DNA of 27,983 nucleotides from a virus, in IMG/VR virus record IMGVR_UViG_3300020430_001411, positions 1-27,983 of that record; one strand, 5' to 3'. The translations under genes and the position numbers were made by a program. Below, in pieces: positions 21,344-25,720 of this stretch. Below the pieces are notes generated by a model. It was given only the letters and a program-made list of their open reading frames with translations. It was not told the DNA's origin and made no database searches. Numbering within the stretch: position 1 is the first letter of the stretch; the number at the start of each line of letters is the position of its first letter.

Positions 21344-22600
21344 ATGGATAATAAGGATTATAAACCAGTTCATACCAATAAGGTAAAAGATAACACATCG
21401 CCTTTCAAAGGTCCTCTGGGATGGCTAGACAACAGACTGCCCATCTTCAGAATGTTTAAACACGAATACCTTGACTTCCAGGTTCCTAAGAACTTGAATT
21501 ACTTTTGGAGTTTTGGTGCAATATTGACATTTACATTATTGGGTTTGATTGCCACAGGCTTGGTGTTAGGTATGCACTACAAACCTAGCGTGGAAGAAGC
21601 ATTCAGCAGTGTGGAACACATCATGAGAGATGTCAACGGAGGTTGGTTATTGCGTTACGCACATATGAACCTTGCATCTTTCTTTTTCATTGCAGTCTAT
21701 ATTCATATGTTTCGCGGATTGTATTTTGGTTCTTACAAAGAGCCTCGACAGTTGATGTGGATATTTGGCATTATAATTTATTTCCTAATGATGGCCACTG
21801 CTTTCCTTGGTTACGTCCTTCCATGGGGACAGATGAGTTATTGGGGAGCAACAGTTATTACAAGCCTCTTTGGAGCCATACCTCTGGTAGGTGATTCTAT
21901 CGTGACACTCCTATGGGGAGACTATGCTGTTGGAGATGCATTCCTAAACAGGGCATTTATATTGCATTGGCTAATTGCATTTATCATTGTACTAGTAGTG
22001 GTGTTTCATGTCATTGCTTTACACATGACCGGATCTAACAATCCAACAGGTGTTGAACCGAAAGACACAAGGGACACCGTGTCATTCCATCCATATGTGA
22101 CAATGAAAGATATGTACGCCTTTCTTGTGTTCTTGCTGGTATTCATGTTATTCCTGTTCAACTTTCCAAATATACTAGGACATCCTGACAACTACATAGA
22201 AGCAAACCCGTTGGTGACTCCGGCACACATTGTTCCTGAATGGTACTTCTTGCCTTGGTATGCTATATTAAGAGCGATACCTGACAAACTTGGTGGTGTA
22301 ATAGCAATGGTATCGGCAATAGGCATCATGGCACTACTTCCATGGCTTGATACGAGTAAAATTAGATCTAATATTTTTCGACCGATATGGAAGCAATTCA
22401 CATGGTTCCTAGTTGGTGATTTCTTTTTGCTGATGTACGTTGGCGCCATGCCTGCAGAAGGTCTATGGATATGGCTAGGAAGGATCGGAACTGCTTATTG
22501 GTTTATATACTTTTTAATCCTTGCTCCGGTGGTAGGATGGTTGGAGAAACCCCATCTTGTGCCAGAAGCAATCCATCTCCATAGTAAGAAAAAACAGTAG
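21344..22600 (+). CDS. petB: Cytochrome b of the cytochrome bc1 complex (phage-encoded, full length)
   Basis: 418 residues, the length of a complete alphaproteobacterial-type cytochrome b with about eight membrane helices. The four haem ligands are present: His107 and His121 (RYAHMNLASFFFIAVYIHMFR), and His208 and His222 (ILHWLIAFIIVLVVVFHVIALH). The 13-residue spacing within the second pair is that of bc1-type, not b6-type. The Qo-site motifs GYVLPWGQMSYWGATV (156-171) and PEWY (298-301) are intact. It is not split into b6 and subunit IV. In bacteria it is the quinol-oxidising core subunit, acting with a Rieske protein and cytochrome c1, neither of which is encoded nearby. It lies between nrdB and a phage PAAR gene, so it is part of the phage genome. 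No clear Shine-Dalgarno is seen. Confidence 0.95.
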   Translation: MDNKDYKPVHTNKVKDNTSPFKGPLGWLDNRLPIFRMFKHEYLDFQVPKNLNYFWSFGAILTFTLLGLIATGLVLGMHYKPSVEEAFSSVEHIMRDVNGGWLLRYAHMNLASFFFIAVYIHMFRGLYFGSYKEPRQLMWIFGIIIYFLMMATAFLGYVLPWGQMSYWGATVITSLFGAIPLVGDSIVTLLWGDYAVGDAFLNRAFILHWLIAFIIVLVVVFHVIALHMTGSNNPTGVEPKDTRDTVSFHPYVTMKDMYAFLVFLLVFMLFLFNFPNILGHPDNYIEANPLVTPAHIVPEWYFLPWYAILRAIPDKLGGVIAMVSAIGIMALLPWLDTSKIRSNIFRPIWKQFTWFLVGDFFLLMYVGAMPAEGLWIWLGRIGTAYWFIYFLILAPVVGWLEKPHLVPEAIHLHSKKKQ

Positions 22601-22923: not shown

Positions 22924-24195
22924 ATGACAATTAAAAAAGGACTTAGATCACTTGCTGAGAACACACCGAACTTCTCAAATCAGTCTGTGGAAAATGCAAT
23001 CAATGACATCAAAGCAGTTGACAAGGATGACGGGCACCAATTTATTCTTTCTCAATTTTTGCTTGATGAGGCCATTAGAGACAACACTGTCCTAACCACA
23101 TCACAGAAAAACGATGTACTAGATACATTATACAACGCACAGCCTCATCTACAGATTGGACGTTACCTTAATGATGTCATAAGACATACCAATACGATTA
23201 TTGATGGTTCTATTATACCTCTAGATGACGCCGCTAATCCTACTCCTTCAACCTTTTTAGAAATATTGCAAAACGTTCAAACCATACAAGGATTAGTTCC
23301 AGACCTCCTTGGTATATCTGCCGCTGAACAGAAAAGATCTGTAAATGACCATTTGGGAATATTGAACGGAATTTTTTTAAGCACAACTGATAGCACAGCA
23401 CCTGTGTTCACGAGATTGAAAGAAATAATGCAACTGATTGACACTAATTCAAGGACCACAAGTGCTCTTAATACTGCTGTCACTAATGCGGCCGTGGCCA
23501 ATCTTAATTTAAGAACATTTATAAACGGTGTTGTAGCAGACTCCACAGACTTCCAAACAACTTTAGACAACAGGGTAAACTCGGTGGTTACAATGTTTTC
23601 AACCCTGAATACTCGTATATCCGAAATCCCAGGTGATCCCACAGTTGATCTGGCATCAATCAGGGAGGAAGTTAACGTTCAAGTGGCACTAGAAAACAGT
23701 AACCTCTCTGGTATCATAGATTACATAGACACTCTTACCAGCAACATCAGTTTTAGCACTCTAGCCGAAGATGTTGAAATGCGAGAGCTCATGACAAAAG
23801 TTGCAGGTGATCCTAATTGGCAGTCATATTTTAGAGAATATGAGCAAAATCAAAACAATCTAAACCCAATCTATACCACCGAATCAGACTTAGATAAAGA
23901 TTCAATAATAGAAGAAGTTCTGTCAGCAAGGGGCCTGCCCGATGTAACAGACTCTACCAATTTTCAAGCAGTGGTCAATAAAGCCAGAAGAGATAGTAGG
24001 ATTGACACCGCAAATTTTGATAGACTATCGGCTGAGGAGCAAATTATAAAAAGTTGTGAACAGTTGGGAATCACAACTGCCAACAGGACCATTAGCAGTT
24101 TAAGTAATTCTTTGTTAAAAAATCTTAATAAGCACGACAGAGACACTATTGCAAAAGAGCTGGATCTAAACCAGTCATCTGAGACTCATAGTTAA
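22924..24195 (+). CDS. Putative baseplate or tail-associated protein (423 aa)
   Basis: Follows the PAAR gene by 2 bases. The sequence is almost entirely helical and polar, with long repeats of hydrophobic heptads (SNLSGIIDYIDTLTSNISFSTLAEDVEMRELMTKVAGDPNWQSYFREYEQN) and no membrane segment or enzyme motif. It contains no cysteine apart from one near the end (KSCEQLGITTANRT). The position behind the spike-tip gene, under the same late promoter, suggests a tail or baseplate part, but I recognise no family. The end overlaps by 4 bases the 3' end of the convergent minus-strand gene. Confidence 0.6.
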   Translation: MTIKKGLRSLAENTPNFSNQSVENAINDIKAVDKDDGHQFILSQFLLDEAIRDNTVLTTSQKNDVLDTLYNAQPHLQIGRYLNDVIRHTNTIIDGSIIPLDDAANPTPSTFLEILQNVQTIQGLVPDLLGISAAEQKRSVNDHLGILNGIFLSTTDSTAPVFTRLKEIMQLIDTNSRTTSALNTAVTNAAVANLNLRTFINGVVADSTDFQTTLDNRVNSVVTMFSTLNTRISEIPGDPTVDLASIREEVNVQVALENSNLSGIIDYIDTLTSNISFSTLAEDVEMRELMTKVAGDPNWQSYFREYEQNQNNLNPIYTTESDLDKDSIIEEVLSARGLPDVTDSTNFQAVVNKARRDSRIDTANFDRLSAEEQIIKSCEQLGITTANRTISSLSNSLLKNLNKHDRDTIAKELDLNQSSETHS

Positions 24196-24401
24196 TCTTC
24201 TATTTGTTCGCAACCAATTTCAAGTCTCTCATAGGGTATATTATATGCTGTAAAGTAATCAGTGAGTCCATAAAACCTGAATTCTGCCTGTTGTTCGCAC
24301 TGATATTGATATTTGAATACTTGGTTATCACTGTCGCTATAATCCTGACACTGCATTTCACCATTTACTAAAATACACATTATTGCAAATAATTTATACA
24401 T
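24192..24401 (-). CDS. Small four-cysteine protein with signal-like N-terminus
   Basis: 69 residues on the minus strand, with ATG at 24401. The N-terminus MYKLFAIMCILVNGEMQC is hydrophobic and could be a signal or membrane anchor. Cysteines lie at 9, 18, 35 and 64. The spacings from the second to the fourth (17 and 29) are identical to those in the protein encoded at 25508-25720, which also shares the M[YW]K[LV] start and a Cys9. The two are therefore paralogues on opposite strands. The gene follows the tmRNA coding piece on the same strand and may be co-transcribed with it. The function is unknown. Confidence 0.6.
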   Translation of the reverse strand: MYKLFAIMCILVNGEMQCQDYSDSDNQVFKYQYQCEQQAEFRFYGLTDYFTAYNIPYERLEIGCEQIED

Positions 24402-24409
24402 AATTTTTT

Positions 24410-24446
24410 GCCCCACTTCTGTTGCGAGGCAGGGGCCGCCCCAGAA
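24410..24446 (-). other. H-type pseudoknot of the tmRNA coding piece
   Basis: On the minus strand TTCTG (24446-24442) pairs with CAGAA (24421-24417), and GCCCC (24436-24432) pairs with GGGGC (24414-24410). The two helices interlock as an H-type pseudoknot, as expected downstream of the tag frame in tmRNA. Confidence 0.65.
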
Positions 24447-24457
24447 ATTATAGGTTA

Positions 24458-24526
24458 TTACGCCGCTAATCTCAATTCGGACATACCAACTGTTAGGTCA
24501 GCAAATCCTAATGCTCTTTTGTTTGC
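24458..24526 (-). other. tmRNA tag reading frame
   Basis: The resume codon is GCA at 24526-24524. Twenty-two codons encode ANKRALGFAD, then LTVGMSELRLAA, and end at tandem stops TAA TAA (24460-24455). The C-terminal LAA end is the standard ClpXP degron and the AN start is typical of tmRNA tags. The tag is longer than the 10-residue E. coli tag. Confidence 0.8.
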
Positions 24527-24607
24527 ATTTAAAAACTGGCCGTTACCTCGTACCAACTGGGTAGACTCCACATTTCTTTACACACCCGTCGATCCTAGTT
24601 CACCCCC

Positions 24608-24640
24608 GGAAGGGATTACATAAGCCACCAAGTAATAAAT
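24608..24640 (-). other. Internal transcribed spacer between acceptor and coding pieces of tmRNA
   Basis: These 33 bases separate the CCA end from the 5' G of the coding piece and must be removed to give the two mature pieces. The spacer contains TTGGTGG (24631-24625), which is perfectly complementary to the CCACCAA that spans the CCA end (24646-24640). Confidence 0.65.
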
Positions 24641-24709
24641 TGGTGGAGGTGGTCGGTACTGCCCCGACGTCCGTGATGTTTATTCCAAATATTTCAACAT
24701 CTACATAAT

Positions 24710-24738
24710 ATTTAAACATAAAGTTGACCTTTTGTCAA
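24710..24738 (-). promoter_or_regulatory. Putative sigma70 promoter of the tmRNA
   Basis: On the minus strand TTGACA (24738-24733), 17 bases, then TTAAAT (24715-24710). The predicted start at about 24703-24704 coincides with the first base of the P2-like helix strand GTAGAT. The -35 is perfect; the -10 matches at four of six positions. Confidence 0.5.
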
Positions 24739-24752
24739 TCTTATGCTAAATT
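24724..24752 (+). promoter_or_regulatory. Putative extended -10 promoter for the gene at 24759
   Basis: TTGACC (24724-24729), 17 bases, TAAATT (24747-24752), preceded by TGC as an extended -10. The predicted start falls on the ATG at 24759, so the mRNA would be leaderless. It overlaps the divergent tmRNA promoter, and the two -35 elements form the inverted repeat TTGAC-N5-GTCAA. Confidence 0.4.
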
Positions 24753-24758
24753 AGATAT

Positions 24759-24962
24759 ATGCCAAAAATGAGAAAATTTATAATAACTGATGCTGGGGAA
24801 ACCAAAGAGATCGAGGCACTTTCATTTAAGAAGGCTGTGAAGTCATATCAAGGCAATTCTAAGTCCAAGATGATAACTATCGAATGGATGACGAAGGGCG
24901 GAGAGCAGTTCGTCAAGGAACAAAAAATACCATTAGGTAGAAAGAAAAAGATAGGACGATAA
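24759..24962 (+). CDS. Small basic hypothetical protein (67 aa)
   Basis: Begins MPKMRKFIITDAGETKEIEALSFKKAVKSYQGNSKSKMITIEWMTKGGEQFVKEQKIP and ends with a lysine/arginine-rich tail (GRKKKIGR). Short strand-helix-strand content (KFIITDAG, SFKKAVKSY, MITIEWMTK) suggests a compact alpha/beta fold. The function is not recognised. A second in-frame ATG at codon 4 is possible. It begins a run of short plus-strand genes typical of phage early regions. Confidence 0.6.
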   Translation: MPKMRKFIITDAGETKEIEALSFKKAVKSYQGNSKSKMITIEWMTKGGEQFVKEQKIPLGRKKKIGR

Positions 24963-24968
24963 ACAAAA

Positions 24969-25133
24969 GTGAGAGTAAGCCACAACCCATTAATTAAATT
25001 ACTGGTTAAAATCAGAATGGCCTATGCAGACATGAGAGGTCATCACGGACACAAGTGGGACTATGAGCCAGGTGAAAACTATCTTGGAATGAAGAAAAGC
25101 AAATACTGGCAAAAGCATCACCCAAACAAGTAA
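24969..25133 (+). CDS. Small hypothetical protein (54 aa), GTG start
   Basis: GTG at 24969 opens a frame of 54 codons ending at TAA 25131-25133, 6 bases after the previous stop. The product begins MRVSHNPLIKLLVKIRMAYADM and continues RGHHGHKWDYEPGENYLGMKKSKYWQKHHPNK. It is rich in His, Lys, Trp and Tyr. It starts either at the GTG or at an internal ATG at codon 17. The amino acid composition looks like real protein and no other frame is open here. The function is unknown. Confidence 0.5.
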   Translation: MRVSHNPLIKLLVKIRMAYADMRGHHGHKWDYEPGENYLGMKKSKYWQKHHPNK

Positions 25134-25192
25134 GTCTCCGCAGTTTACCACACACATAACTTATAGTAGCACATCACATACAACTTATGGGC

Positions 25193-25200
25193 ATTAAATA
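25193..25200 (+). promoter_or_regulatory. Possible late-type motif ATTAAATA in an 87-base gap
   Basis: ATTAAATA lies 20 bases before the ATG at 25221. The gap 25134-25220 contains nothing else that I can identify. Confidence 0.25.
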
Positions 25201-25220
25201 TTAATGTCAAGGGAAGGTCT

Positions 25221-25499
25221 ATGTGGGAGAAAGTACAAAAGCGAACAAATTATTGGTCTCGAATCAGGAAAAAAGCACCAAAAGTTCCTGACATTACCTG
25301 TCCCGCAATCGACGATGTGCTAAATCAACTGGAAAAACAAGTTGGCAACGAATTCAAACAAAGGAAGTTTAAAGCGATAGAACGTAAACTGGAAAAATTA
25401 CGTTCTGCAAATGAAAAACTCAGGGACAGTGGCAAGTATTGGCACGATGCCTGCAAAGAAACTGTGCGTGATCTCCTAGGTAAGAAAAAAACTAGGTAA
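25221..25499 (+). CDS. Coiled-coil hypothetical protein (92 aa)
   Basis: Preceded by an AGGGAAGG ribosome-binding site. It starts MWEKVQKRTNYWSRIRKKAPKVPDITCPAIDDVLNQLEK. Residues 42-80 form a strongly charged helix (ERKLEKLRSANEKLRDSGKYWHDAC), likely a coiled coil. There is no signal peptide or membrane segment. The CPAID segment before the helix is distinctive but I cannot link it to a named family. It lies 8 bases before the next gene. Confidence 0.6.
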   Translation: MWEKVQKRTNYWSRIRKKAPKVPDITCPAIDDVLNQLEKQVGNEFKQRKFKAIERKLEKLRSANEKLRDSGKYWHDACKETVRDLLGKKKTR

Positions 25500-25507
25500 C
25501 TATTTGT

Positions 25508-25720
25508 ATGTGGAAAGTACTTGTTGTTATATGCACACTAGAACATCCATGCACAATGTTCGAAGAAGATCCAATGAAATACTACCAATCTGAACAAGAA
25601 TGCTGGAGAATTGCTGACGAAAAAGCCAATGCTATGGTCAGAGATTTCAGTGCTAATGGCTATACAATTGAAAGTGCCGCATCGACCTGTGAAATGGAAT
25701 ACTCCCAAGGTTCGGCGTAG
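25508..25720 (+). CDS. Small four-cysteine protein with signal-like N-terminus (paralogue)
   Basis: 70 residues. The N-terminus MWKVLVVICTLEHPCTMF is hydrophobic and short, as in a signal or anchor. Cysteines are at 9, 15, 32 and 61; the 17- and 29-residue spacings equal those of the minus-strand protein at 24192-24401. Acidic and polar residues dominate the rest (EQECWRIADEKANAMVRDF). A periplasmic or membrane-associated role is likely; the function is unknown. Confidence 0.6.
   Translation: MWKVLVVICTLEHPCTMFEEDPMKYYQSEQECWRIADEKANAMVRDFSANGYTIESAASTCEMEYSQGSA

Follow-up and report, generated by a model that had tools for sequence, protein, structure and literature searches.

The reason for tmRNA genes in phages is an open question, and it is raised again by a locus in the window analysed here, the whole 27,983-base stretch of an IMG/VR virus record. 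A first-pass annotation had described the locus as a full tmRNA gene with its own promoter, and had proposed that the phage runs its own ribosome rescue or redirects tagging. The clade to which the gene belongs, characterized by an unusually long tag, gives the question a concrete handle.

Positions 24410-24704 on the minus strand are occupied by a complete, circularly permuted two-piece tmRNA gene of alphaproteobacterial type, found by both Rfam and ARAGORN (Table 1). The Rfam covariance-model search of the window gave 104 bits (E 1.1e-27, threshold 50) for RF01849 alpha_tmRNA and 100.5 bits (E 9.4e-19, threshold 47; match 24704-24493) for RF04321 tmRNA_permuted, and no other Rfam family reached threshold. 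ARAGORN called the tag ANKRALGFADLTVGMSELRLAA, followed by two stops. Structural elements previously read from the letters were all recovered, including the CCA-ended acceptor piece upstream of the coding piece, the perfect acceptor stem with its G3-U70 pair, the 22-codon tag ending in LAA with tandem stops, the H-type pseudoknot, and the P2-like helix joining the two pieces. The P2 helix has two further segments besides GTAGA/TCTAC, and in the pseudoknot S2 (GCCCC/GGGGC) is perfect while S1 (CTGGG/CCTCG) pairs at 4 of 5 positions. Two details of the earlier description are amended: the 33-nt segment between the pieces lies outside both mature pieces, and alpha tmRNA normally has an H-type pseudoknot with GCAACAGAA.

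The gene also has the promoter ascribed to it, in the form TTGACA-17 nt-TTAAAT. Just 5' of the gene, a TTGACA-like box located about 16-18 nt before a TATAAT/TTAAAT-like box is present in almost all related tmRNA loci. A transcript starting about 7 nt past the -10 hexamer would coincide with the 5' end of the acceptor piece, and the 69-aa ORF that follows is possibly co-transcribed with the tmRNA. This ORF and another at 25508-25720 (+) encode small cysteine-containing proteins with hydrophobic N-termini, which look related and flank the tmRNA region.

Table 1. Features of the tmRNA locus, in positions of the window
Feature	Position	Strand	Evidence or remark
Divergent ORF	24759-24962		Translation
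-35 hexamer TTGACA of sigma70-like promoter	24733-24738	-	T(T/A)GACA in almost all related phage loci
-10 hexamer TTAAAT	24710-24715	-	Conserved in related loci; TATAAT in several relatives
Acceptor (tRNA-like 3') piece, CCA-ended at 24641	24641-24704	-	RF04321 match; 5' end approximate
P2 outer 5' strand GTAGA, partner 24561-24565	24700-24704	-	99.5% of cells paired; two-sided changes at 5/5 pairs
T arm GTCGG-GGCAGTA-CCGAC, alpha/SAR11-type T-loop	24652-24668	-	100% paired in 39 homologues; two-sided changes at 4/5 pairs
Acceptor 3' strand CACCTCC (24651-24645) and ACCA	24641-24651	-	Perfect 7-bp pairing with 24601-24607, G3-U70 included
Intervening segment, 33 nt, presumably removed in processing	24608-24640	-	Can pair with CCA end (CCACCAA/TTGGTGG)
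Coding (mRNA-like) piece, beginning with acceptor 5' strand GGGGGTG (24607-24601)	24410-24607	-	Rfam, ARAGORN
P2 outer 3' strand TCTAC	24561-24565	-	Covariation as for GTAGA strand
Tag frame ANKRALGFADLTVGMSELRLAA, 22 codons, Ala resume codon GCA 24526-24524	24461-24526	-	ARAGORN; peptide-level conservation
Tandem stops TAA TAA	24455-24460	-	Directly after tag frame
H-type pseudoknot with conserved GCAACAGAA	24410-24444	-	S1 24444-24440/24429-24425; S2 24436-24432/24414-24410
69-aa ORF directly 3' of tmRNA, same direction	24192-24401	-	Recurrent neighbour; tblastn 30-60% identity in many relatives

Homologues were collected with a spacer query, a DNA pattern lying between the two pieces and not overlapping the tag, which returned 59 viral contigs. 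The covariation alignment comprised 39 distinct phage homologues and 28 proposed pairs. Pairing was observed in 95.6% of cells, compared with 71% in shuffles and 37-46% when the partners were slid by 1-3 columns. Two-sided changes amounted to 256 cells against 69 in shuffles and affected 23 of the 28 pairs, with covariation counted in five helices overall and strong in the acceptor stem, the T stem and P2. The acceptor stem exists as GGGGGTG/CACCTCC, GGGGCTG/CAGCTCC, GGGGCCA/TGGCTCC and GGGGGCG/CGCCTCC, yet the alanine determinant G3-U70 is invariant (39/39). The pseudoknot shows compensatory changes as well, with at least five two-sided replacements of S2 (GGCCC/GGGCC, GGTCC/GGACC, GGCAAC/GTTGCC, TGACTT/AAGTCA and GCAACTTG/CAAGTTGC). 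Neither of the outcomes named in advance as refuting the tmRNA, no score with any tmRNA model or no compensatory changes in the acceptor stem and pseudoknot of homologues, was obtained. The hairpin CCACCAA/TTGGTGG in the spacer was considered as a further helix and rejected; it is paired in 92% of cases but shows no covariation, as five of its seven pairs never vary; the acceptor fixes one arm, and GGTGG is included in the search pattern.

The tRNA-like domain changes in a concerted manner. The GGCAGTA T-loop is accompanied by AG in the D-loop in all 19 sequences that carry it, and the TTC-type T-loop by GG in all 15, while five homologues have a third type of T arm. Such co-switching would be the tertiary-contact signature of a working tRNA elbow, and the clade offers a clean natural series for studying the evolution of this elbow (GGCAGUA with AG, UUC-type with GG). 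Between two near-identical phage tmRNAs (L202 and L208), the T arm and the D-loop that matches it are both swapped, a difference that points to phage tmRNAs recombining in their tRNA-like domains.

The tag sets this gene apart. In the clade, tags are 22-25 residues long and conform to A[NKT]x[KR]A[LF][GR]FAD...[LM]RLAA, while other phages caught by the spacer pattern have tags of 9-15 residues. All variants of the long-tag class end in LAA, a known end recognised by ClpX. The first, tag-based sample was biased towards conserved tags, and selection was therefore measured on the spacer-found set. In 23 distinct 22-codon tags from this spacer-selected sample pS is 0.296 and pN 0.088, with a pN/pS of about 0.3. 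Gly7 is encoded by four codons and Thr12 by three, whereas core residues hardly vary, and for this reason selection acts on the peptide, beyond the RNA alone. Together with the covariation, the pattern indicates purifying selection on both the RNA and the tag. In addition, ARAGORN called permuted tmRNA tags of 29 residues (AKKSTTFASILPVKVERVSLVQEALAASA, AKASTGEVTVSAKNLKFRTLAAKGQSLAV) on three viral contigs (L033, L035 and L061).

The host is probably, albeit with some uncertainty, an alphaproteobacterium related to SAR11, the best clue being a cytochrome b of the window that is 70% identical to a Fonsibacter protein. Among 41 loci from Pelagibacterales and neighbouring alphaproteobacteria, ARAGORN called tags of 9-10 residues in 40 (for example ANDELALAA, ANNKLALAA and ANQKFALAA) and no tag in one. 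The long-tag pattern had no occurrence in the 297 Pelagibacterales genomes searched. A tblastn survey of 50,697 annotated phage records also returned no long tag, a 22-residue query being insensitive in such a search, and at the DNA level the tmRNA gave chance-level matches only to annotated phages.

The long tag is accompanied by a phage-encoded ClpX. It was found in 10 of 10 long-tag contigs of at least 43 kb, and in two shorter ones (G329 and G021) that reach far enough, with clpX placed 10-22 kb from the tmRNA and on the same side in all 12 measured cases. According to contig coordinates, none of the checked long-tag contigs without ClpX reaches as far as 22 kb beyond the tmRNA in that direction. 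The window stops about 3.3 kb past the tmRNA, so the absence of clpX from it is expected; judging from the relatives, its own phage would carry the gene as well. In G320, a 172-kb relative that shares the tmRNA locus and has a phage DNA polymerase, ClpX scores 499.9 bits and passes the NCBIfam cut-off of 370.75. The zinc-finger cysteines, the GYVG pore loop, the RKH loop and an IGF/MGF loop, known elements by which ClpX engages tags and docks with ClpP, are retained in all 15 close-clade ClpX proteins inspected. A ClpA-like protein in G320 was also considered as a component and rejected, being under its NCBIfam cut-off (882 bits against 993) and absent from other long-tag contigs. No ClpP was detected in G320 by a motif scan, which is a weak test.

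The association was also approached from the opposite direction, by retrieving ClpX relatives in viral contigs and testing 50 of these contigs for tmRNA. A permuted tmRNA was present in 27. Of the 15 contigs whose ClpX falls in the close clade (65% identity or more), 13 had it, including three new ones, all three long-tagged; of 35 more distant ClpX carriers, 14 had it, and the tags that ARAGORN was able to call in these were ordinary short ones. For comparison, a published survey reported any tmRNA in 402 of 18,146 phage genomes (PMC9004378). Genome size confounds the comparison with ClpX carriers. Long phage genomes tend to gather host-like genes, so co-occurrence of tag and ClpX need not mean cooperation, and since the tag class is one clade, the link represents roughly a single evolutionary event.

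The reading that we favour, and hold to be likely, is a functional phage-owned tmRNA that adds the phage tag by trans-translation and sends the products to ClpXP through the LAA end, the unfoldase probably being phage ClpX working with host ClpP. The gene would be transcribed by host RNA polymerase from its own promoter, and host tRNA-processing enzymes would excise the 33-nt spacer, leaving two pieces that stay joined through base pairing in the acceptor stem and P2. The molecule would then be charged by host alanyl-tRNA synthetase via G3-U70, and host SmpB would deliver it to stalled ribosomes. A nascent protein would receive ANKRALGFADLTVGMSELRLAA in place of the short ANxxxALAA-type host tag, and its LAA end would route it to ClpXP, in this clade probably composed of phage ClpX and host ClpP. 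The likely benefit would be that ribosomes stay available as mRNAs are broken during infection, and that the phage partly controls how tagged proteins are disposed of.

This outline agrees in part with the suggested phage-run ribosome rescue. The complete tmRNA gene speaks for it; SmpB, however, was not found in 16 related and reference phage records in which positive controls matched (most of them fragments, HTVC008M and Mosig whole), and because of this SmpB and alanyl-tRNA synthetase must be supplied by the host. Redirection of tagging, the other suggestion, is plausible, and it gains from the phage-specific, peptide-conserved long tag and from ClpX in relatives.

An even chance can be given to an explanation that overlaps with the favoured one until the last step, in which an ordinary phage tmRNA supplements host trans-translation, host ClpXP deals with a long tag that is a mildly selected variant, and phage ClpX has no connection with that tag. 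HTVC008M and Mosig, whose permuted tmRNAs have short, host-like tags and in which no ClpX was detected, fit this explanation, as do other ClpX-bearing contigs with ordinary tags such as ANDEMFALAA, whereas the conservation of ALGFADLTVG and RLAA as peptide at sites that vary synonymously, and ClpX in every long-enough clade member, argue against it. Phage ClpX might instead serve virion assembly or replication control, roles proposed for it in other phages (PMC7824862, PMC6102473). A dedicated circuit, in which the phage tag is read better by phage ClpX with host ClpP than by host ClpX, is a tentative proposal that we regard as rather doubtful. If true, the phage would choose which stalled products get destroyed, or would bypass host regulation of ClpX.

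Conservation of a core located away from the C-terminal LAA, in a tag with no similar counterpart in any sampled host, is also what would be expected if the tag stabilised, localised or marked proteins, with the extended ALGFADLTVG binding a partner other than ClpX. The LAA end is nevertheless kept in all variants of the class and no such partner was identified, which makes this reading improbable. Lower still is the probability of a competitor or decoy RNA that binds SmpB or stalled ribosomes and blocks or diverts host trans-translation, the tag being a by-product. DS6A-like molecules consisting of the tRNA domain only do inhibit tmRNA, and this role was proposed for the tag-less DS6A RNA (PMC4131195, PMC11915505), but a decoy does not need the selected complete tag frame, the stops and the pseudoknot found here.

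Although tmRNA genes are common integration sites (PMC11915505), a relic or attachment-site copy of a host gene in a temperate phage is very improbable, given a full gene with compensatory changes throughout, a tag absent from sampled hosts, and no tyrosine integrase (PF00589) in ten related contigs where controls were positive. The locus is, moreover, fixed beside nrdA-nrdB in relatives and under purifying selection, in accordance with the early view of a full gene and not an attachment-site fragment. Equally hard to sustain is a bacterial origin of the contig, to which the Fonsibacter-like cytochrome b and a TctA domain at the contig end could point. Against it, this is an IMG/VR virus record; phage families provide the matches to its NrdA, NrdB and tail-spike-like proteins, and its 424-aa protein has counterparts in HTVC008M, Melnitz and hundreds of cyanophages. 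Dozens of viral contigs repeat its gene order nrdA-nrdB-(cytochrome b)-PAAR-orf423-tmRNA-orf92-orf371, in which the tmRNA can face either way, and the 172-kb relative has a phage DNA polymerase. A Pfam search for T4 Gp23, run without a positive control, matched nowhere and is uninformative.

Several other genes of the window and its relatives were recorded. The cytochrome b (21344-22600, +), placed between nrdB and the PAAR gene, is full-length (418 aa, PF00033 and PF00032), with the heme-ligand histidine pairs and PEWY visible. Relatives at 71-92% identity are encoded by viral contigs L202, L260, L273, L277 and L284, and among annotated phages one record matched, a Helicobacter phage, at the contig edge. 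A cytochrome bc1 subunit in a phage would be an unusual metabolic gene. At the start of the window, a TctA-like membrane subunit (3-710, +; PF01970), cut by the contig end, is followed by a 348-aa protein (703-1749, +) whose likeness to a TctC-type binding protein is by position only; the two are possible carboxylate uptake genes. The 172-kb relative (L324-L331) also encodes a ClpA-like unfoldase, a TonB-dependent receptor-like protein and a CHASE2-guanylate/adenylate cyclase protein, and this phage may make a cyclic nucleotide.

Compared with known systems, the gene of the window belongs to a known kind, since permuted tmRNA in marine myophages has been published and is present in HTVC008M and Mosig. 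The two-piece form was described in 2022, with Melnitz, for marine phages, among them SAR11 myophages, and 50 of the 53 two-piece structures reported came from marine or aquatic phages (PMC9004378). In our search, HTVC008M (145103-145414; L240) and Mosig (111505-111808; L241) both scored above the alpha_tmRNA threshold. Melnitz (a Methylophilales phage) and the pelagimyophages HTVC008M and Mosig are marine T4-like phages with alphaproteobacterial-type permuted tmRNA, as here. The tags are ANFNEYALAA in HTVC008M and GEDNFALAA in Mosig, both without ClpX, in contrast to the long tag and ClpX in the window's clade. For Melnitz, compared by description, and for Mosig a glutamine riboswitch was reported (PMC9004378), whereas none was found in the whole window or in its 24100-25400 segment. 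With bacterial ssrA, represented by RF01849 and RF04321, the gene shares piece order, acceptor G3-U70, the GGCAGTA T-loop, P2, the resume codon and the GCAACAGAA pseudoknot. Bacterial ssrA differs in having a 9-10-aa tag and, in Pelagibacterales, an intervening segment of 5-12 nt, compared with 22 aa and 33 nt in the phage-borne gene.

In the literature searched, with most subscription journals outside the search, we found neither a description of the long tag nor a link of phage ClpX to a phage tag. An unusually long, peptide-conserved tag that likely hosts lack, together with ClpX in relatives, looks new; if the two work together, they would give the phage its own branch of ribosome rescue and targeted proteolysis. 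Phage tmRNAs as such are not new, mycobacteriophages and Bacillus phage G being long-established cases (PMC4131195). The genes of Bxz1-type mycobacteriophages and phage G, compared by description, are phage-encoded ssrA as here (PMC4131195), but these phages are unrelated and do not belong to the marine permuted-tmRNA group; phage G has, in addition, a ClpX relative (gp258). ClpX and ClpA are known in jumbo phages, where a part in assembly or replication has been considered for them (PMC7824862, PMC6102473). The Sinorhizobium jumbo phage AP-J-162 combines tmRNA and clpX in one genome, as do the relatives of the window, although in this 471-kb phage the authors tie ClpX to DNA replication and not to tagging (PMC11242549).
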